This document shows positions 1-62,152 of a stretch of DNA of 64,000 nt, piece after piece (position 1 is the stretch's first letter; each line of letters begins with the position of its first letter). Location: positions 3,442,501 to 3,506,500 of the forward strand of contig NZ_CP014544.1 in the NCBI RefSeq assembly GCF_001586255.1, in the 5' to 3' direction. Below the pieces are notes generated by a model that did not search any database, had not been told where the DNA came from, and worked only from the letters and a program-made list of their open reading frames with translations. This DNA is from Zhongshania aliphaticivorans (lineage in GTDB: Bacteria > Pseudomonadota > Gammaproteobacteria > Pseudomonadales > Spongiibacteraceae). The position numbers and the translations under genes are program-made.

Positions 1-553
1 AGATCATTGCGCCAACGACGCCCATAGACACCATCCAGTTACAGAGCATGCCGCGAATAAAGATCGTAAACCAGCCACCCTCGCCATGGGCCTTGTAACC
101 AAGGGTCCGCGACTCACCAATACTGCCAACCTTAGCGGCCAAAGCGCCGCCGTCAGTGTTATAACCATAGGTCAGAATAAAGGAAGCAAAGAAGGCAACT
201 GACAAGGCCCCAGCGAAATTGCCAATAAACACCAGCCCCCAATTACGCAACATTTGCTTTACGGTACAGCCCGCGCGCTTATCAATAATAGCTAAAGGCA
301 CAAGGGTAAATACACCGGTGAGTAGATCGAATTTCATTAGGTACAGCATGATGAAACCAACCGGGAAGAGCAGCGCGCCTACCAACGGGTTCCCCGTTTT
401 AACGGTTACAGTTATCGCAAAGAAGGCGGCAAGCGCCAAAATAGCACCCGCCATATAGGCCCTTACCAAAGTATCTCTGGCCGACATGAAGATCTTAGAT
501 TCTCCAGCGTCAACCATCTTTGTCGCAAATTCATTGGGTTCGATATAAGCCAC
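1..553 (-). CDS. Formate/nitrite transporter family channel, 3' end cut by window edge
   Basis: Only the first ~184 codons are inside the window. Translation from a GTG at 553 (AGGAAG ribosome site at 560-565, 6 bases away) gives a hydrophobic protein with segments around AYMAGAILALAAFFAITV, GFIMLYLMKFDLLTGVFTLV and FIGNFAGALSVAFFASFIL. The LLTGVF stretch and the later RGMLCNWMVSMG stretch fit the two FNT family signatures (FocA/NirC pentameric inner-membrane channels for formate, nitrite or similar small anions). The substrate cannot be told from this part. The upstream 400 bases hold no gene. Confidence 0.82.
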   Translation of the reverse strand, partial: MAYIEPNEFATKMVDAGESKIFMSARDTLVRAYMAGAILALAAFFAITVTVKTGNPLVGALLFPVGFIMLYLMKFDLLTGVFTLVPLAIIDKRAGCTVKQMLRNWGLVFIGNFAGALSVAFFASFILTYGYNTDGGALAAKVGSIGESRTLGYKAHGEGGWFTIFIRGMLCNWMVSMGVVGAMI

Positions 554-877
554 TGCGTACTTCCTCTCACAAGTTTTTTGTTACAAGTGATACAGCAAAT
601 AACGAACCAACTCACACACAAAACACTAAGCTATTGTTTTAAAATAAGAAATTTGAAATAAAACAAAAAGCCCAAGCTAGAAGCACCAAAAAATTGCATT
701 ACTGCCCTCGGTAAAAAAATAAGGCTTACATCGACACGCACAATTAAAGTGCGCCAACAATACCCAGTGAGTACTTAGGGTGCGGTGCGGCGGCAACTGC
801 GCTACTCGCACCAAGCCCGCAGACCGGTGGCATGTAAATACGACAGGGCCTCTGCTCGGTCTATAGCGCGCAAACGA

Positions 878-891
878 GTTCAATATTGAAC
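878..891. promoter_or_regulatory. 14-bp perfect palindrome in gene-free stretch
   Basis: GTTCAATATTGAAC is a perfect palindrome lying in the 554-954 gene-free stretch between the FNT gene and the 3' end of the amidohydrolase gene. It could be an operator or chance. Nothing else recognisable was seen in this stretch; the short open frames there have no family signal. Confidence 0.25.
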
Positions 892-954
892 GCAGAGCCA
901 AAATTGAATCTCTACGCCAACACCGTCACCCTAGCGAACGCGGGGGCCTTATCC

Positions 955-2832
955 TTAATTTGCTACCGCTCTAAGCAAACGTCCCATCGGCTTTTTACCA
1001 AACTGACCAGAGAATTCATCATTTTCCCAGGCGACATTGCCCGCAATCATGACCAGCGGCACAACACCATCAGAGCGATTCACTAACTGCTCGTGATTGT
1101 ATTCAGCGCGGAACTGGCGAATAACGTGGGCTTCACCGTCGTAATTCGCGAGGGCCTGTGGGTCGACCAAAATTAAATCTGCAACATCGCCTTCGTGGAT
1201 CGTGCCGCCTTTAACACCAAAGAGATCGGCGGCGTCTTTCGTTAGTCGCTTCACCATATACGAGACGTCTTTATCGCCACCGCTGGAAGCAAGTTTGAGG
1301 CTGCGCAAATTAACATCGTAGAACGCCATATTGGTCAGATGTGCGCCGCAGTCGTTAAAGCCCGGCATAAGCAGCGGGTTCATTATTAATTCTCTGATGG
1401 TCTCCGGGTTGCGGTTAGCGGTGACCGTGCTCCAGCTGAGGTCAAGGTCAAAGCTACGCAATAACTGCAGCATAAAGTCGGCTTCGTCGCTGATCCAAAA
1501 GAAGTCACGGTTAATAAGCTCCTTTTCTGCTTCGTTGCAGCCACTGGGCGTCTCACCGCGTTTGATCGCGATGATCCGGTCGAGCAGGTGCTGCATATTC
1601 AAACCCACCCAGTTCTCAATCGGGCAGCCTTCGATGGTCATATCACTTAAGTTGCGGTTGAAGGCATAATCTTCCAAATTGAGAATACGTTTTAGCCTCG
1701 CCACGCTCCAGCCATGCTTACCCTTTAGCCACATCGCCCTAAACGCTTTAATGTAATCGGCGTCATTCAGGATACGCAGCCGCGCGCCGCGATCTTCCAT
1801 ATCAGTTTCATTTAATTTTCGCAGTTCGGGAATTTCTTCTGAAAGCGGCGTTACTGCACCATCTGACCAAACTTTAAACGGTGCACCCAAGGCTTGTAGA
1901 TGAAAATCGCCGCGGAGAAATTTAGAATTTAAAACTTTACTAAGCAACTTCGCTAAGCGTAGAAGTTTCCGGTTGTTCGCCACATCTAAGGCAGCGACTA
2001 CCGTGGTTCGCAATGGTCGTTTATGCAGCCTGCCACTGGTCAACAAAAACGTTTTTAAGGTGTTAATCGCACTGTCTTTTGGTGGTGTTGCCTGCCATAC
2101 CGCGCCGTTGTCGCGCACGATCTGGGTTAATGCTTTAATTTCTTCGTATTTGGCAAATTGCGTGGGTATGGTTTTTTCGCAATTCGGCTGATTAGCCAAG
2201 TAATGAAAGGGCAAGGCATCGGTCGAAAAACCCGCGTAACCCAGTCTAAGCGCAGCGCTCAAGGTAGTTTGCATGGCCTTTAATTCACTGTCACTTGGGT
2301 CGCGGCTAATACTGGCATCAAAGCCCATGGCATCAATACGTAACATTGAGTGCGGAAATAAGGTGACGACATTGGGTCCGAGATTTAGCTGCTCTAGATG
2401 TTCCAAATACGCTTTTGGTGAGTCCCAGTAAACTTTGTCTGCGCAGCTACGCAATAATGACTTTGGTAAGTTCTCGACCCGAGCAAAGCAATCGACGATG
2501 GGGTCTATATCGCCGCTGCGCTGATTGCCGAACGCCAAACCTAAACTGCAATTCGCGATAACAACCGAGGTCGTACCGTGCCGCACCGACTCGGGTAAAC
2601 CGGGCGCGACTTCGAGCTCTAGATCGTAGTGGGTGTGAATATCAAACAGCCCCGGCATCAGCCATTTGTCACTGCCGTCGATTACCCGCGCCGCGCCCTC
2701 CGCATCGAGATTTTTACCTCTTGCCACAATTTTACCGTTGGCTATGGCAATGTCTTCTACAACCGCGGCTTCACCGCTATTAAAGATCTTTGCATTCTGA
2801 ATCAGGGTGTCGACTATCACTGATGAACTCAT
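955..2832 (-). CDS. D-aminoacylase-type amidohydrolase
   Basis: 625-residue metal-dependent amidohydrolase of the N-acyl-D-amino-acid deacylase group. Seen: N-terminal beta sandwich (VDTLIQNAKIFNSGEAAVVEDIAI), the metal-binding H66-T-H68 in LMPGLFDIHTHYD, a late FNDCGAHLTNMAFYD segment that suits the catalytic aspartate region, and the closing sandwich GDVADLILVDPQAL. The protein is longer than the usual 480-570 residues of characterised D-aminoacylases, so the substrate may well not be an acyl-D-amino acid. It lies 18 bp downstream of a TetR gene on the same strand, so the two are probably co-transcribed. Start ATG is well placed; cytoplasmic, no signal peptide. Confidence 0.8.
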   Translation of the reverse strand: MSSSVIVDTLIQNAKIFNSGEAAVVEDIAIANGKIVARGKNLDAEGAARVIDGSDKWLMPGLFDIHTHYDLELEVAPGLPESVRHGTTSVVIANCSLGLAFGNQRSGDIDPIVDCFARVENLPKSLLRSCADKVYWDSPKAYLEHLEQLNLGPNVVTLFPHSMLRIDAMGFDASISRDPSDSELKAMQTTLSAALRLGYAGFSTDALPFHYLANQPNCEKTIPTQFAKYEEIKALTQIVRDNGAVWQATPPKDSAINTLKTFLLTSGRLHKRPLRTTVVAALDVANNRKLLRLAKLLSKVLNSKFLRGDFHLQALGAPFKVWSDGAVTPLSEEIPELRKLNETDMEDRGARLRILNDADYIKAFRAMWLKGKHGWSVARLKRILNLEDYAFNRNLSDMTIEGCPIENWVGLNMQHLLDRIIAIKRGETPSGCNEAEKELINRDFFWISDEADFMLQLLRSFDLDLSWSTVTANRNPETIRELIMNPLLMPGFNDCGAHLTNMAFYDVNLRSLKLASSGGDKDVSYMVKRLTKDAADLFGVKGGTIHEGDVADLILVDPQALANYDGEAHVIRQFRAEYNHEQLVNRSDGVVPLVMIAGNVAWENDEFSGQFGKKPMGRLLRAVAN

Positions 2833-2850
2833 GGCTTATTATCTCTATTT

Positions 2851-3468
2851 TTATAAGTTATCAAAATAACTGGCGAGCATGGCTGCGCCCAGTTGTAATG
2901 TAAGGGCTTTCGATTGCCTTGGGCGGCCAAATACCTGGCGATGCACCAAGCCCTCTGCCATGGCAAATAGGTTAAAGGCAACGGCATCGGCGTTTTCAAT
3001 ATTGAAGCGATTCACAAACATCAGTACGCGGTCGTATAGCATTTTTTCGCCCTGGCCTAAAATTTCGGCCAGTTCCGGATCGAGTTCTTTGCGCTGCTCT
3101 AATATTTGATGAAGCTCAGGTGCTTGCTCATGAAAAGCATAGATAAGCTCCAAAACATGGTGAAAAATCCGCTCTGTCGCACCTGGCTTTACCCCGCCCT
3201 TTTCCACTTTACTACTGAGTTCAAGAAACTCGGTCGCCGACGGCACCTGTTGATAAAGCTCTTCCATGCGCTGCTTCGCTATGACGCGGAGCATGTCTTC
3301 TTTATTTTCAAAATACTGATAAAACGTACCCGTTGCGACGCCCGCTTTGCTTGCCACGGTCTTTGCCGTGGTGTCGTGATAACCATGACTAACAAAGCAC
3401 TCGCTCGCCGCGGCGATTAAGGCGGCGCGCTTTTGTTTGGCTCTGGCTTGGCTTGGCATAGCTTTCAT
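2851..3468 (-). CDS. TetR family transcriptional regulator
   Basis: 205 residues. The N-terminal TetR helix-turn-helix is clear: ALIAAASECFVSHGYHDTTA, then KTVASKAGVATGTFYQYFENKEDML, about residues 16-65. The C-terminal ligand domain is not assignable to a named subfamily. It is followed by the amidohydrolase gene on the same strand and is divergent from the MEST-like hydrolase, so it probably controls both and itself. A 7-bp inverted repeat at 3532-3553 in the divergent promoter region is the likely operator. Confidence 0.9.
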   Translation of the reverse strand: MKAMPSQARAKQKRAALIAAASECFVSHGYHDTTAKTVASKAGVATGTFYQYFENKEDMLRVIAKQRMEELYQQVPSATEFLELSSKVEKGGVKPGATERIFHHVLELIYAFHEQAPELHQILEQRKELDPELAEILGQGEKMLYDRVLMFVNRFNIENADAVAFNLFAMAEGLVHRQVFGRPRQSKALTLQLGAAMLASYFDNL

Positions 3469-3531
3469 TAAGTGACTCTTAATCTCGATTTGAACGGGGT
3501 ATCAAACGGTTAATCTAAGCAATATAGTCAA

Positions 3532-3553
3532 AACTTGAACCAGACGTCAAGTT
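3532..3553. promoter_or_regulatory. Candidate TetR operator
   Basis: AACTTGA and TCAAGTT arms separated by 8 bases form an inverted repeat between the divergent tetR and hydrolase genes, 64 bp upstream of the tetR start and 64 bp upstream of the hydrolase start. Size and position fit a TetR operator; this is inference. Confidence 0.4.
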
Positions 3554-3617
3554 CAGCTTTAATGGCCAAACATTAGTCCACTCTATTTTCGTAATGCATG
3601 GTGATATTGGGGTAAAC

Positions 3618-4520
3618 ATGAACACTCAAAATAAAAGCAATTTAAAGACAGCCCTTGCCAGCTGGAAGGCCAGCGGAGAGTGGCTGGAACTCAAAGGCCA
3701 TCAAATATTCGTTAAAGACGAAGGCCCGAGCGACCTCCCAGTATTACTACTTATCCACGGTTTTCCCACTTCAAGCTGGGACTGGTATGGCATATGGGAT
3801 ACGCTAAAATCACGCTTTCGGCTAGTCACCCTAGATATGCTGGGCTTTGGCTATTCAGATAAACCCAATGTACGTACCTACTCCATTCATGGCCAAGCCG
3901 ATATTGTTGAGGCACTGGTGGCCGCCAAATCTTTAGATCAGTTTCATGTATTGGCTCACGACTACGGCGACACCGTGGCCCAAGAGCTATTGGCAAGACA
4001 GCAACAGGGTGTCGGCGCGGGTACATGGCTGTCGTGCTGCTTTTTAAACGGCGGTTTATTTCCTGAAACACACCGCGCCATATTGACCCAAAAATTACTA
4101 CTGAGCCCTTTAGGCCCACTGTTAAATAAGCTATCCGGCTATAAGCAGTTTAGCGCGCGATTCAGCTCCGTATTTGGCGAGCAAAGCAAACCCACTGAAG
4201 AAGAACTCAGGATCTTTTGGGCCCTCATTAATGAGAAAGACGGAAAGCATATATTTCACAATTTAATTACCTATATGCGGGATCGCAAACAACATCGCGA
4301 ACGCTGGGTAAACGCCCTGCATAATTCCACTATTCCGCTCGCCTTAATCAATGGCTCGGTAGATCCCGTCTCTGGGGCACACATGGTCGCACGCTATAAA
4401 GAGCTAAAATGTCGTTTAGATTATTTAGGTGAATTGGCGAGCATTGGCCACTACCCTCAGGTCGAAGACCCTGCCGGTGTCGTTCAGCATTTCATTAACT
4501 TCATTGACGGCAAAAAATAA
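3618..4520 (+). CDS. Alpha/beta hydrolase related to the MEST/PEG1 family
   Basis: 300 residues from the ATG at 3618, chosen over an in-frame ATG at 3594 because TTGGGGT lies 4 bases before it. Alpha/beta hydrolase fold: oxyanion loop HGFPTSSWDW (H47-W56), LDMLGFGYSDKP, and an aspartate nucleophile D115 in AHDYGDTVAQELLAR, with the catalytic histidine in the late GHYPQVEDP. An aspartate nucleophile points to epoxide hydrolase or haloalkane dehalogenase chemistry. FLNGGLFPETHRAILTQKLL, the later RERWVNAL and the HYPQ(V/L)EDP region resemble, from memory, the vertebrate imprinted protein MEST/PEG1 and its bacterial relatives. Divergent from tetR, so probably TetR-controlled. Substrate unknown. 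Confidence 0.82.
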   Translation: MNTQNKSNLKTALASWKASGEWLELKGHQIFVKDEGPSDLPVLLLIHGFPTSSWDWYGIWDTLKSRFRLVTLDMLGFGYSDKPNVRTYSIHGQADIVEALVAAKSLDQFHVLAHDYGDTVAQELLARQQQGVGAGTWLSCCFLNGGLFPETHRAILTQKLLLSPLGPLLNKLSGYKQFSARFSSVFGEQSKPTEEELRIFWALINEKDGKHIFHNLITYMRDRKQHRERWVNALHNSTIPLALINGSVDPVSGAHMVARYKELKCRLDYLGELASIGHYPQVEDPAGVVQHFINFIDGKK

Positions 4521-4614: not shown

Positions 4615-5514
4615 CTACTGCAGATATTCCTTAAAATAATCCACCGCCACCTTAATTTTAGGCACAGTGTATTGCGGCTGCTGATACAGCATATAAATAC
4701 TGCCCGCTGGGTGATTGGCCGTCGTCGATAAGGTTTCTGGCAGCGGCACCCACGCCAATCGACCATCGGCGATTTCTTCAGCAATACTCCAGCTCGGCAA
4801 CATCGCCAAGCCCTGGTCGCTTAGTAGTGCCTGACGAATAACACGAATGCTATTGCTGATTTGCGCGGTGCTGATATCTACCCGCTGCCATGCGCCCCGC
4901 GCCTCGACATGCCAATGCCATATTTGCGCGGGACTGCGATACACCAGAGCGCGGTGAAGGCCCAGCTCGGCGATGGTTTGCGGCATGCCAAATTTATTAA
5001 TATAAGAACGAGATGCGCACAGGCGGTGGGTATTATCGACAAGGCGGTGGGCGATAATCCGGCCATCCGGTTCGCTGCCGCCGCGAATAGCAATGTCGAT
5101 GCCGTCGCGCTGGAGGTCGGCGGTGTGATTAGACAACTCGAGATCAATCACTATTTGCGGGTAGCGCGATTGAAACGCCTCCAGCAACGGTAGCAGCCGA
5201 ACCTCGCCATAATAAGGTAGCGCGCTGATACGCAGCACCCCAGACGGCGCATTTTGATAATTGCCTACCCTGCCCTCTGCGCGGTCTATCGCCGCCAATA
5301 TGTCTTTTGATTCGCTGAGGTAAATTTTGCCGATCTCAGTGAGGCCAACATGGCGGGTGCTGCGTTTGAGCAGTGCCGCCCCCAGCTCAGACTCCAGCGC
5401 TTGAATACTGCGCGACACCGTTGAGACCGGCACGTTGGCGAGCTTGGCCGCCGCGCTGAAGCTCCCCACCTCGGCAATACAGCAGAGGTAGTGCATGGCT
5501 TTAAGCTTGTCCAT
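4615..5514 (-). CDS. LysR family transcriptional regulator
   Basis: 299 residues with the LysR N-terminal winged helix-turn-helix (MDKLKAMHYLCCIAEVGSFS, then AAAKLANVPVSTVSRSIQALE) and a C-terminal periplasmic-binding-like effector domain beginning near GVLRISALPYYGEVRLLPLL. Closest in feel to the large YafC/AaeR-type group. It is divergent from the Old Yellow Enzyme gene with about 116 bp between starts, the usual arrangement for a LysR activator and its target. Confidence 0.92.
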   Translation of the reverse strand: MDKLKAMHYLCCIAEVGSFSAAAKLANVPVSTVSRSIQALESELGAALLKRSTRHVGLTEIGKIYLSESKDILAAIDRAEGRVGNYQNAPSGVLRISALPYYGEVRLLPLLEAFQSRYPQIVIDLELSNHTADLQRDGIDIAIRGGSEPDGRIIAHRLVDNTHRLCASRSYINKFGMPQTIAELGLHRALVYRSPAQIWHWHVEARGAWQRVDISTAQISNSIRVIRQALLSDQGLAMLPSWSIAEEIADGRLAWVPLPETLSTTANHPAGSIYMLYQQPQYTVPKIKVAVDYFKEYLQ

Positions 5515-57356: not shown

Positions 57357-58595
57357 ATGTTAAGTTGGGATGAGTTCGATAAAGAAGAAGCACCGGCCAA
57401 AGCGCCCGCTGCCAAAACCCAAGCCCCAAAAGCAGCGGAGCCTGTGGTTTCTGCTGCACTGAATACCATGAACAGCGAAGACAGCGCAGCAGTTGTCGAC
57501 CAGGCTATTCTCGACAAAGCCAATGCCGCCCTCGAACACCTTGACGTGGCCGCCGGTTTAGAAGAACTGGAAATGGGCGCTGCCCGTCTACGGGTAGAAG
57601 ACAAGCGCATCATCAACTGCCACCTCGACCTCAACCAGCTCGTACCCTTTAAGTACGACTGGGCATGGCAGAAATACCTCGACGGCTGCGCCAACCACTG
57701 GATGCCCCAAGAAGTAAACATGACCGCCGACATCGCCATGTGGAAAAACCCAGAAGGCCTTACCGATGACGAGCGTCGCATCATCATGCGCTCACTGGGT
57801 TACTTCTCAACCGCCGACTCCTTGGTTGCCAACAACTTGGTGCTGGCGGTATACCGTCACATCACCAACCCAGAGTGCCGCCAGTATTTACTGCGCCAAG
57901 CCTTTGAAGAAGCGATTCACACCCACGCCTACCAATACTGCGTAGAGTCACTGGGTATGGACGAAGCCGAAGTCTTCAATATGTATCGCGAACTGCCCTC
58001 CATCGCTAAAAAAGCGGCGTGGAGCCTGCAGCACACCCAAGCACTGGGCGACCCTAATTTCCACACCGGCACCCCAGAAACCGACCAGGAACTGCTCCGC
58101 AACCTGATTGGCTTCTACGCAGTGACTGAAGGCATCTTCTTCTACTGTGGCTTCACCCAGATCCTGTCTATGGGCCGCCGCAACAAAATGACCGGCATCG
58201 CCGAACAGTTCCAGTACATACTCCGCGACGAATCTATGCACCTGAACTTTGGCATCGACATGATCAACCAGATCAAACTGGAAAACCCACACCTCTGGAG
58301 CGAAAAATTCCAAGGCGAAGTAACCCAAATGATCGTCGAAGGCATGCAGCTCGAAATTGAATACGCCAAAGACTCAATGCCTCGCGGCGTACTCGGCATG
58401 AACTCCGGCATGATGGAAGAATACCTCCAATTCATCGCCAACCGCCGCCTAAGCCAGCTCGGCTTAAAAGAACAATTCCCCGGCGCGCAAAACCCATTCC
58501 CATGGATGAGCGAAATCATGGATTTGCGCAAAGAGAAAAACTTCTTTGAGACTCGTGTAATTGAGTATCAGACTGGCGGAGCGCTTACTTGGTGA
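57357..58595 (+). CDS. nrdB: Class Ia ribonucleotide reductase beta subunit
   Basis: 412 residues. Di-iron tyrosyl-radical subunit. Iron ligand regions [40 protein letters not shown] and [13 protein letters not shown]. An unusual Ala/Pro/Lys-rich N-terminal stretch ([20 protein letters not shown]) precedes the core. TTGAGG ribosome site. Ends the NrdR-controlled operon. Confidence 0.96.
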
Positions 58596-58617
58596 TGTAA
58601 ATCATCACGGCAATTCT

Positions 58618-58676
58618 CACTAGAGAGCGACATTTTGTCACTAGAGATGATCCCGAAGGCCAAGTTTTCTCTAGCG
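58618..58676. repeat. Left array of CRCTAGAGA motifs
   Basis: Three copies in 59 bp: CACTAGAGA at 58618-58626 and 58639-58647 (direct, 21 bp apart, two helical turns) and CGCTAGAGA on the minus strand at 58668-58676. Positioned between nrdB and the HNH gene. A related array lies at 60129-60267 on the other side of the cassette. Likely protein-binding sites or element ends. Confidence 0.6.
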
Positions 58677-58813
58677 AGGGCGGCTATCAAAGGTCGCCCT
58701 AAATCACCTCAATTGCATTCTTTTTAATACGAATCAACAAGTTACAAAGCCAAGAAGGCACTAGCTTATAAATTGACCGAGAACATTCCCCACATTTGAC
58801 TATTGGTGCGCAC

Positions 58814-59737
58814 ATGGAAGAGCTCCAAAAATGTAATAGCAGAAACATCCCGCTACCTATTCAGCGCGAAGTAAGGCAACGCTGTGGTTTTGGCTGCGTA
58901 ATATGCGGGCTGCCTTTATATGAATACGAACACATGGAAGAGTGGGCTGTAGTACAAAGACACATTGCTGAAGAAATCACACTTTTATGCGACCAACATC
59001 ATCGCGAAAAGACCGGTGGGTTACTGCCCAAACAGCAGGTCGAAGCCGCAAATAAAAGCCCATACAACTTAAGAGCAGACACATCAAAACCCTACAATCT
59101 GCATTTTTCAGGCAACAAAGCCTGCGTAGAGATCGGTAGCAATAGTTTTACTTGTGAGGACCAAGGTTACGGAACCGCTATGGCGCCGATCAGTGTAGAT
59201 GGGACACCGTTGATCGGATTGATCTTGGCTGACGGTCACTTCCTACTGAACATTGTTATATTCGACGAATACAACTGCCCTGTACTCCAAATAAAAAACA
59301 ATCAATTATTCTATTCAACATCGCCCTGGGACATCCAGCTTGTCGGTACAACCCTTACCATTAGGGAAGCACACAGAAAAATACTCATAGAAATTGATTT
59401 CCAGCCCCCCAATAAAGTAATCATCAAAAAGGGCCGCTTTCTTCGTAACGGAGTCGAGATATTAGTTCGCCCCCAAAATATTCTTATAACTAACACCTTA
59501 ACTTATCTAAGTGGCAACCATGCGCACAACTGCACGGGAGGCCTAGTAATTGGGTATCACGAGCACCCTATAGGTGGTTTCATTGCCTTAAACGGAGTAC
59601 CTAGATATCTTGGAGACAAGTCGGAAGCTCTTAAATTTGAAGCCGAGTGCAAGATAGACAATGAATACTACGCTGCATCGAACGCCTGCGAAAATATTCA
59701 GCCGGCAGCACAAGAGAAAAGCATAATATCCGATTAA
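58814..59737 (+). CDS. HNH-type nuclease-like protein with unknown beta-rich C-terminal domain
   Basis: 307 residues from the ATG at 58814 (a TTG at 58796 opens the frame). Residues 24-66 form a treble-clef: C24-GFG-C28-VI-C31, E39-H40 in LYEYEHMEEW, then C59-DQ-H62-H63-REK. The EH and HH-x-E-K pattern is that of HNH endonucleases, but no asparagine of the classic N was found, so activity is not certain. Residues ~95-300 are strand-rich (VEIGSNSF, LIGLILADGHFLLNIVIFDE, LTIREAHRKILIEIDF) with no family recognised. Base and codon use are AT-richer than neighbours; likely acquired. Confidence 0.72.
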   Translation: MEELQKCNSRNIPLPIQREVRQRCGFGCVICGLPLYEYEHMEEWAVVQRHIAEEITLLCDQHHREKTGGLLPKQQVEAANKSPYNLRADTSKPYNLHFSGNKACVEIGSNSFTCEDQGYGTAMAPISVDGTPLIGLILADGHFLLNIVIFDEYNCPVLQIKNNQLFYSTSPWDIQLVGTTLTIREAHRKILIEIDFQPPNKVIIKKGRFLRNGVEILVRPQNILITNTLTYLSGNHAHNCTGGLVIGYHEHPIGGFIALNGVPRYLGDKSEALKFEAECKIDNEYYAASNACENIQPAAQEKSIISD

Positions 59738-59775
59738 TATTTCAACAGTCGATACCACAGACAAGGAAACAGAAA

Positions 59776-59988
59776 ATGGCTAAAACTACAGAGATTTCTA
59801 TCAGGTGCGAGCATTGCAGAAAATGGTTCCCCTCTCCAATATTTATCGGGGATAGTAATTCTTTCAATACCGCCTTATTATTCAACAACCAAGCACAGTG
59901 TCAGCACTGCGATAAGATGACAGGCTGCGACAAAGAGAACTTTCGGGCCAGGTTTGAGGACGGCGGTTTTTTAGGTAGTGACACTTAG
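59776..59988 (+). CDS. Small zinc-ribbon-like protein
   Basis: 70 residues. Two CxxC pairs, C11-EH-C14 and C42-QH-C45, plus C51, suggest a zinc ribbon. Sequence between (FIGDSNSFNTALLFNNQA) is not recognised. Starts 38 bp after the HNH gene, ACAAGGAAAC ribosome site upstream, same strand and composition, so probably co-transcribed with it. No function assigned. Confidence 0.65.
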   Translation: MAKTTEISIRCEHCRKWFPSPIFIGDSNSFNTALLFNNQAQCQHCDKMTGCDKENFRARFEDGGFLGSDT

Positions 59989-60128
59989 GTATATGCGGAT
60001 TGTTACAATATCGAATCCCACATAAATCCAGAACCTAATTGGACTCTGGCTATTTTTATTGGGCCGACATTGGCAATTTCCGACTTTTGTGACAGGCCGT
60101 AACATGTTGATTTTTATATGAGTATTTT

Positions 60129-60267
60129 CACTAGCGGAAAAACGAAATTATCTCTAGTGACACAGACGGCTGAAACGCCCGTATACCACGGGATACGGAA
60201 TCGCCTCTAGCGAGAATTACCGCCTCCGCCCCAGTTCGCGCTAGAGAGAATATTTTAGCAGTAGAGA
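60129..60267. repeat. Right array of CRCTAGAGA-like motifs
   Basis: Five copies in 139 bp: CACTAGCGG (60129-60137, plus), CACTAGAGA (60151-60159, minus), CGCTAGAGG (60204-60212, minus), CGCTAGAGA (60239-60247, plus), CAGTAGAGA (60259-60267, plus, 20 bp on). The last two share a longer direct repeat, TAGAGA then AATATT. The 59989-60346 region has no gene otherwise. Confidence 0.6.
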
Positions 60268-60285
60268 AAATATTCTAAGCAACAT

Positions 60286-60312
60286 AAAAGGCCGCTAATT
60301 AGCGGCCTTTTT
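60286..60312. terminator. Bidirectional terminator
   Basis: AAAAGGCCGCTAATTAGCGGCCTTTT is a 26-bp perfect palindrome with A/T runs on both strands, between the HNH cassette and the convergent DUF3147 gene. Confidence 0.85.
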
Positions 60313-60346
60313 CAATTACAGCCTCGCTTACTCACAAATAAGTAGC

Positions 60347-60628
60347 TCATCCAATGGCAATCATTATCGTTCGGTGCAAAAAGTAACCCACAACGAGTAA
60401 CAGTAAACCCGATACATAACTTTGCCAAAAGACAAGATGTAGTCGATCGGCAAGTAAAAATGGCAAGAAGAATAAATAAGAAATCGGCACGCCAAAAATA
60501 ATACTTTTGGCAAAGGTGATGCTGACCTGGGAGTCTTTGTGTTCTATGTACGAAAATAACAAAGCCAAAATAGAAACCAGTGGTAGCGCGACAATAAAGC
60601 CCGCCAACACCGGCTTCTTATCTGACAA
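60347..60628 (-). CDS. DUF3147-like membrane protein, N-terminus possibly frameshifted
   Basis: 93 residues from a TTG at 60628. Helices GFIVALPLVSILALLFSYI, SIIFGVPISYLFFLPFLLA and SYVSGLLLLVVGYFLHRTI match the DUF3147 pattern. The frame is open another 23 codons upstream and there encodes a convincing first helix (KLYFAAKILLAASVIGYASW), but without a start codon; an ATG with GGTGAG before it (60693) is one base out of frame. Either a single-base deletion or a sequencing error. Last gene of the DUF6488-HupE operon. Function unknown. Confidence 0.6.
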   Translation of the reverse strand: MSDKKPVLAGFIVALPLVSILALLFSYIEHKDSQVSITFAKSIIFGVPISYLFFLPFLLADRLHLVFWQSYVSGLLLLVVGYFLHRTIMIAIG

Positions 60629-60703
60629 CCACGACGCATAGCCAATAACCGACGCGGCGAGAAGTATCTTTGCGGCAAAATATAGCTTGTCATAGACTCA
60701 CCG

Positions 60704-61051
60704 TTAATTTACGCCTTCAAACTTACCGCTGATATTCGCATCATAAACTTCGCCTTCATCTGACATCAGTATATAGAGTGCGCTCTCTTCATTCGGGTTT
60801 ACAACTTTGACGATACGATAGCCATCGCCACTCTCAAAAATAGTCGCGGCATCACTAGCAATATTCGCCCAGCTACCCGGCACTTTCCCAAAGCCAAGCT
60901 GGGGATCAACATTGGCAAAACCTTTAGTGATTTGAGTTGCGATGAGCAGGGCCTTTTGCTCAGAAATTGGTGCATGGCCGCTGCCATGGGCCAAGAGATT
61001 TGAACTTATAAACAAGCTCGCGAGTAAACACAAAGCAATCCGGAATTTCAT
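60704..61051 (-). CDS. DUF6488-like small secreted protein
   Basis: 115 residues with a signal peptide (IALCLLASLFISSNLLAHGS) followed by a His-containing HGSGHAPISEQ. The rest, with LGFGKVPGSWANI and EESALYILMSDEGEVYDANI, matches small proteins that accompany HupE/UreJ and CzcA/CusA genes. Periplasmic; perhaps metal-binding. Lies 14 bp behind the HupE-like gene. Confidence 0.72.
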   Translation of the reverse strand: MKFRIALCLLASLFISSNLLAHGSGHAPISEQKALLIATQITKGFANVDPQLGFGKVPGSWANIASDAATIFESGDGYRIVKVVNPNEESALYILMSDEGEVYDANISGKFEGVN

Positions 61052-61065
61052 TCTTTCACCTTTAT

Positions 61066-61938
61066 TTAGTGGCTGTGGTAGGCGCCATCACCATGTTCAT
61101 GAGCGCCTTCGTCATACTGCGAAGGCTGAGGAGCAATAATACGCCGAGGATAGTGATCGAGGATATTTGCTTTCGCCTCCGTCGCCATATCTTCATGGAT
61201 ATGCGAGTGATCACCGGTATTAATCGGAAAGTCATCAGCAAACACGGTGTGCTGGTAGCCGTGTAGCTGATGCAGAAAAAGCAGTCCGCCAATAATGATT
61301 AGCAATGTATTGGCCATAACACTAAAGCGCTTGAAAGAGGCAGTTTTACGCCACCCGACTAACAGTGCCAACATGACAGTGAGCGCCGCGATCTGACCGA
61401 CTTCGACACCGACATTGAAGGCGAGTATTTTCATAACGATACTGCCCTCGCCCATGGGCAGCTGTTGCAGCCGCGTCGACAAGCCAAAACCGTGAATCAA
61501 ACCGAAGCCAAACACCATATACATCAGGTTTGGCGAGCCTACACCAAAATAGCGCTTAAAACCGTCTAGGTTCTCGAAGCCCTTGTAGCAGACGGTCAGC
61601 GCGATAACAGCATCAATCAGGAAGTAATTTGCCTGCACGAAATAAAGCGTGGCAAAGACCAGCGTAATCGAGTGGCCCACAGTGAACGCCGTAATGAATT
61701 TTATGATATCGCTAAAGCGGCTGAGAAAGAAAACAACGCCAAACAGAAAGAGCAAGTGGTCATAGCCGGTGAGCATATGCCCCGCACCCAACAGAACGTA
61801 ATCTGGTAGACCCGCTTCTATCGCGCGCTGTTTATCTGCCTCAGACATGCCGTGGGCTAACACACTTACGCTACTGAGCATCGCCACTAGTATGACAATG
61901 AGCGCGTAAATCCGGCCTCGAATCATTGTTGTCGTCAC
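61066..61938 (-). CDS. HupE/UreJ family membrane protein
   Basis: 290 residues from a GTG at 61938, with GGAGG 6 bases upstream; the frame runs 18 codons further into the CzcA remnant. Signal-like helix ending SVLAHG, then HupE/UreJ core: GAGHMLTGYDHLLFLFGVVF, FTVGHSITLVFATL, GFGLIHGFGLSTRLQQLPMG, FNVGVEVGQIAALTVM. Histidine-rich C-terminus (GDHSHIHEDM; GAHEHGDGAYHSH). Family members move nickel or cobalt; metal here unknown. Confidence 0.85.
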   Translation of the reverse strand: MTTTMIRGRIYALIVILVAMLSSVSVLAHGMSEADKQRAIEAGLPDYVLLGAGHMLTGYDHLLFLFGVVFFLSRFSDIIKFITAFTVGHSITLVFATLYFVQANYFLIDAVIALTVCYKGFENLDGFKRYFGVGSPNLMYMVFGFGLIHGFGLSTRLQQLPMGEGSIVMKILAFNVGVEVGQIAALTVMLALLVGWRKTASFKRFSVMANTLLIIIGGLLFLHQLHGYQHTVFADDFPINTGDHSHIHEDMATEAKANILDHYPRRIIAPQPSQYDEGAHEHGDGAYHSH

Positions 61939-61939
61939 T

Positions 61940-62152
<213 letters not shown>

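Follow-up and report, generated by a model that had tools for sequence, protein, structure and literature searches.

The two arrays of CTAGAGA motifs behind nrdB in the window (the whole stretch of DNA that was analysed, 64 kb long) are, with high confidence from comparison with related genomes, predicted to be transposon ends. The unit delimited by them, located at 58608-60222, is probably a non-autonomous mini-element with Tn7-like ends that occupies a putative attachment site, starting 12 bp after the stop codon of nrdB, and the CTAGAGA copies would represent the repeats bound by TnsB at both of its ends. The unit comprises 1615 bp with a G+C content of 43.8% compared to 52.0% for the window, and its ORFs of at least 60 aa are two cargo genes and an antisense ORF of 61 aa inside the HNH-like gene (Table 1). 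None of the genes that an autonomous element encodes (TnsA, TnsB, TnsC, TniQ/TnsD) is located inside 58608-60222. Moreover, no relatives of the TnsB or TniQ of the related genome G006 were found in the window genome, and none of 16 candidates scored there had a TniQ-domain match. Therefore, the unit was classified as non-autonomous, and its movement, if any, would need help in trans.

Table 1. Features of the window unit and its surroundings (window positions).
Feature	Position	Strand	Remark
nrdB, class Ia ribonucleotide reductase small subunit	57357..58595	+	ORF; 3′ end is the putative attachment site
CATCA, candidate left target-site duplication	58603..58607	.	G006 has an exact duplicate; right copy here CCTCC
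Left end	58608..58660	+	terminal CGGCAATTCTCACTAGAGAGCGA and two direct TnsB-like sites (58617-58626, 58638-58647)
Third left-array site TCGCTAGAGA	58668..58677	-	inverted
HNH-like protein, 307 aa	58814..59737	+	cargo; ATG at 58814 is the likely start
Two-CxxC (zinc-ribbon-like) protein, 70 aa	59776..59988	+	cargo
Right end	60037..60222	-	sites 60128-60137, 60151-60160, 60204-60213; terminus TCGCCTCTAGCGAGAATTACCG
CCTCC, position of right target-site copy	60223..60227	.	mismatches CATCA
Second left end, related type	60228..60280	+	sites 60238-60247 and 60258-60267; abuts first element; exact start uncertain
Intrinsic-terminator-like hairpin	60286..60312	+	GGCCGCTAATTAGCGGCC and T run; read by eye
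CTAG-centred array copies	58617-58626, 58638-58647, 58668-58677, 60128-60137, 60151-60160, 60204-60213, 60238-60247		
Eighth array copy CAGTAGAGA	60259-60267		CTAG core absent

In the first-pass annotation of this DNA, eight copies of the motif in two clusters, two neighbouring pairs 20-21 bp apart and two AT-richer genes between the clusters had been described. All eight copies were found, seven of them CTAG-centred and one without the CTAG core. The start-to-start spacing of neighbouring copies was 20 and 21 bp and, in a third pair, 23 bp, with remaining gaps of 30, 34 and 53 bp inside the arrays, and both genes were present with a G+C content of 44% compared to 52% for the window. The 9-mer CRCTAGAGA, searched with at most one mismatch, gave 27 matches in the 64-kb window against 15.5 expected, a number reached in 1 of 100 shuffles of the window. 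This window-wide excess is modest, and the clustering is the standout feature; at least two copies inside 60 bp occur in the window only at the two arrays, and six of the seven window matches of the 10-mer TCRCTAGAGA (at most one mismatch) are located in them. Over the 4.2 Mb of the genome the 10-mer was not enriched (294 matches, compared to 346 of a control with the pattern reversed), but 4 of its 10 exact copies are located inside the 1.6-kb unit. Two instances of the paired pattern CTAGAGA-N11..18-CTAGNGA were detected in the whole genome, each of them at this locus, against one of its reversed control.

Both end types were shared by three elements only, those of the window, of G006 and of G017. 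Their left ends are 94-98% identical over about 50 bp and their right ends 74-83% identical over 187-226 bp, and no similarity of the interiors was detected (blastn, E<=0.01 in each case), so that the ends alone are in common. The left end of the window is 94-96% identical to those of G017 and G006 over about 50 bp, and its right end is 83% identical to that of G017 and 76% identical to that of G006. A search with the right end through 21 genomes of the family resulted in strong matches in these three genomes only and in one additional partial copy in G006 (E 6e-7); at the loose threshold of E 10, chance-level matches appeared in all 21 genomes. The G006 element, whose host has an NrdB 100% identical after rounding to that of the window, spans 38,277 bp between two copies of CATCA, an exact 5-bp duplication, with the matching right end about 38.3 kb from nrdB. 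Behind its left array follow restriction-modification-type genes, a TnsA-like ORF and genes for TnsB, TnsC and TniQ. Matches above the Pfam cut-off were obtained for TnsC (TniB, E 1e-23) and TniQ (E 6e-10), and those of TnsB (rve, E 1e-5; Mu-transpos_C, E 0.003) were under the curated cut-off. The TnsA-like ORF had no Pfam match and was assigned by its position and a 27% alignment to an ORF of G503 (E 1e-7); its counterpart in G008 matched a TnsA-like N-terminal model at E 7e-5, slightly below the cut-off. The G017 element is 4,201 bp long and is flanked by ACATC on both sides (exact duplication); SIR2 and STAND-NTPase domains are present in its single large ORF, and its right end was identified through the similarity to the right end of the window.

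Within the window unit itself, the right end is an imperfect inverted repeat of the left end; the inverted third site of the left array is not kept in the left ends of G006 or G017. The inverted-terminus score of the unit was 15. In the background of 3,802 scores from 19 nrdB-downstream regions, which left out the surroundings of the G000 (window genome) and G017 right ends as well as the initial 100 bp of every region, the maximum was 12, bar two overlapping windows in G012 at score 22 that represent another left end in stacked position. Used by itself on G017, the test was not significant (12 vs 13 in a shuffle), and in the first 20 kb of G006 nothing was found because the right end is located farther away. 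No 5-bp target-site duplication was found at the window unit, with CATCA on the left and CCTCC on the right; the mismatch reflects either decay of the right copy or an origin of the two ends from separate insertions. An unlikely alternative that nevertheless deserves weight is, accordingly, a hybrid, in which the left array stems from one Tn7-like element and the right array from another, brought together by recombination or deletion among stacked elements without ever having formed one unit. The differing flanking 5-mers fit such an origin, as do the stacked ends at the nrdB site in G000, G006, G012 and G017, a decayed right end that abuts a left end on G006 contig C10, and the fact that the left end of the window matches G006 as well as G017, with the right end being closer to G017. 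However, both ends of the window unit are of the same type and in correct orientation with a near-matching inverted terminus, and in G017 the same end pair delimits a clean unit of 4.2 kb whose duplication is exact.

The preferred reading, a mini-element with Tn7-like ends, is consistent with the short and fixed distance of the elements to a conserved gene: behind the nrdB stop codon the element starts after 12 bp in G000 and G006 and after 14 bp in G017. By eye, the window-type left array was recognised directly behind nrdB in 6 of 21 family genomes (G000, G006, G017, G005, G007 and, more diverged, G019), and the sequence after it varies from species to species. A regulatory role of the arrays, as operators or similar sites that a regulator would bind and that would belong to the 3′ region of nrdB or to the two cargo genes, is improbable. 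The left array is indeed present behind nrdB in several relatives that lack the HNH gene, and a terminator-like hairpin often comes after it, but by eye it is missing from several more distant congeners, and in G006 a copy is located on another contig ahead of other genes. Furthermore, an element that bears tns genes and has an exact 5-bp duplication is delimited by the arrays, and loci with HNH relatives are devoid of them.

Tn7-like transposition genes were detected in 3 of 19 nrdB-downstream regions, namely in G006, G008 and G003. In G003 and G008 the tns genes are located 12-18 kb behind nrdB with other repeat arrays directly behind nrdB, and the far ends of these tns-bearing stretches were not found. 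In G503, which belongs to another family of the same class, nrdB is directly followed by repeats, recognised by eye, and by four ORFs with matches to TnsA, TnsB, TnsC and TniQ. The search for relatives of the G006 TniQ, which depends on shared words, covered 5.8 billion proteins, of which 7,995 candidates were scored, and yielded only five strong relatives and one weak one; one of the relatives is named Spongiibacter marinus, and two besides that of G503, checked in the same way, are not near nrdB. In the proposed mechanism, the TniQ/TnsD of an autonomous relative such as that in G006 would bind the nrdB 3′ end and recruit TnsC, and TnsA and TnsB would bring the arrays of both ends together and integrate the DNA immediately after nrdB with a 5-bp duplication, which would leave nrdB intact.

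With Tn7-like transposons the window unit and its relatives share the arrays of short inverted repeats at both ends and the insertion just behind a conserved gene; on the side of the relatives, the 5-bp duplication in G006 and G017, the TnsA-like, TnsB, TnsC and TniQ genes in G006 and defence genes in sister regions are added. The array layout of G006, G017 and the window corresponds to the architecture by which Tn7-like transposons are delimited in Benler et al. (PMC8649781). In contrast, the window unit has no tns gene, and its termini are CGG...CCG (CGGC...ACCG at four bases) and not TGT...ACA, which the corresponding section of PMC11406308 describes as typical and not universal. The gene at the site differs as well, being nrdB and not glmS, yhiN, comM, parE or a tRNA gene, the attachment sites named in the same part of PMC11406308, where nrdB is not among them; among the papers searched, none paired nrdB with Tn7-like elements. 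With the interpretation proposed here, an unexplained motif array becomes a testable mobile element, nrdB would join the conserved genes serving Tn7-like transposons as landing sites, and the TniQ proteins encoded behind nrdB (G006, G003, G008, G503) would add new members to the proteins known for site-specific targeting. Non-autonomous transposons in general, like the mini-Tn7 used in the laboratory, consist of ends and cargo only, and the transposase is supplied in trans. The window unit likewise contains only ends and cargo; it differs from laboratory mini-Tn7 in being natural, in its attachment gene and in its two conserved cargo genes, and its mobilisation is putative. If such mini-elements are mobilised in trans, their end arrays would reveal transposase-less cargo islands that are missed by tnsB-based searches, including small uncharacterised modules like the HNH/zinc-ribbon pair.

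The HNH-like protein consists of an N-terminal CxxC...H...CxxHH part, in which it resembles the HNH family PF01844, and a large C-terminal domain that is mostly beta in the model. It differs from PF01844 in this domain and had no match to any Pfam family at E<=1, that family included; its relatives match PF01844 weakly, and of four that were scanned one was above the cut-off (L021) and three were below. In an alignment of 35 hand-chosen sequences the residues C27, C30, H39, C58, H61, H62 and K65 (numbering without the first Met) were kept in all 35. HNH enzymes usually have an Asn at one position; in most members of this family this position appears to be a Glu, so that any activity of the HNH-like protein is putative. 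In total, 967 homologues were found. The 120 listed besides the window's own are 72-82% identical, and the sources named among those listed include Pseudomonas, Vibrio, Photobacterium, Shewanella, Colwellia, Marinobacter and Acinetobacter. Among the 21 family genomes, the HNH and zinc-ribbon genes were present in the window genome only. The zinc-ribbon family comprised 36 proteins including that of the window, and its gene was located beside an HNH relative in 2 of 33 loci searched (L003 and L023).

It had been anticipated that CTAGAGA clusters travel with the HNH relatives and that the arrays are absent where the genes are absent. Neither expectation was borne out: none of 31 HNH-relative loci (20 genome, 9 viral-contig and 2 plasmid loci) contained a 10-mer cluster, a two-copy 9-mer cluster without CTAG core in L028 being the sole one of its kind, and the left array is retained in sister genomes that lack the HNH gene. 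HNH homologues without arrays, together with arrays without an HNH gene, indicate that the ends are those of a transposon family, in which the HNH and zinc-ribbon genes would be exchangeable cargo. Two outcomes by which the first-pass annotation had proposed to refute itself were thus obtained in form, yet its small acquired unit with protein-recognised ends is partly supported: the acquired unit and its ends agree with the sequence comparisons, and recognition by one of the unit's own two products does not, as the ends match Tn7-like transposon ends and the predicted recogniser is TnsB of autonomous relatives.

The arrival of the two genes as an integron-type gene cassette, with the arrays being incidental, has very little in its favour. 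In L004 (Vibrio hibernica) sequences that appear attC-like by eye are located at 3890-3970 and 4850-4975, either side of the HNH gene, which by eye is an integron cassette in an integron-like array; between or beside the window genes no attC-like sequence was seen by eye, and the boundaries are accounted for by the arrays. Least probable of all is a self-recognising homing or defence cassette, in which the HNH protein would bind and cut the arrays between which it is encoded, because HNH relatives of 43-79% identity have no arrays and the arrays occur without HNH, in G006 together with tns genes. Integron cassettes, P2-like prophage cargo and small plasmids are other vehicles for the same HNH cargo, and none of them accounts for the arrays. 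A distant HNH relative (29%) is located beside P2-like phage genes on a Pseudomonas plasmid, and a 3.7-kb plasmid of Klebsiella carries a relative that is 71% identical over two thirds. On the Photobacterium plasmid pPHDD1 (L033, 3977-5194) an HNH relative is fused to an FKBP-type prolyl isomerase domain, a fusion from which names like 'trigger factor' in databases may stem. An HNH relative without CTAG array was observed about 540 bp behind nrdB in a MAG of Candidatus Thiodiazotropha (L008, 3460-4000); this position is either coincidental or represents another use of the site.

For the function of the HNH and zinc-ribbon pair, a defence or anti-element module is the best candidate, with defence at slightly less than even chance. 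Neither protein matched any family of the PADLOC models (2023 library) at E<=1. For the defence scan, 10 proteins were picked from the regions behind nrdB because they looked defence-related, and the clear matches, which carry no enrichment test, were a SIR2/ThsA-like protein in G017, a CBASS cyclase and 2TM effector in G003, HerA and a type I methyltransferase in G008, DndB, DndC and DndD in G001 (the element around them being undelimited) and a type III-like methyltransferase in G006; an 881-aa protein of G008 gave a weak match only. The odds appear balanced for a wider view, in which the nrdB 3′ end is used by a Tn7-like lineage and mini-elements with non-TGT ends ride in trans, each with one small defence module (HNH and zinc ribbon in the window, SIR2-STAND in G017), piling up into a defence island.

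Because a second left end of related type follows behind the unit, several elements are probably stacked at the nrdB site of the window genome. This second left end resembles the sequence behind the G006 element and that directly behind nrdB in G009. In several relatives (L047, L049, L053, L127) the left end is likewise followed by a hairpin of the GGCCGC...GCGGCC type and a T run, and nrdB may have its own terminator replaced by one that arrives with the left end. On G006 contig C10 (L127, 7975-8250) the decayed right end abuts another left end and a terminator before DUF6488/HupE genes, an arrangement collinear with the DUF3147-DUF6488-HupE block of the window (60228-61992) behind the second left end; this block may be the cargo of an older element. 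By eye, at least four other left-end-like types were observed directly behind nrdB in relatives (L046-L066): a AGAAACACTTAGAGG-like left end in G003, G008 and at the second position in G017, and the left-end-like sequences TGGAAGTTGACACTAGAG in G012, GGGTGACATTAGAGAG in G001 and TTCGTGACAAAGAGGG, the latter near-identical between G015 and G016. In G012, bases 16-4161 behind nrdB (L070) form a stretch of about 4.1 kb that is bounded by the 12-bp inverted repeat TGGAAGTTGACA...TGTCAACTTCCA; no G006-type TnsB and no TniQ match were detected in this genome. The stretch is possibly another mini-element, and a window-type left end comes next.
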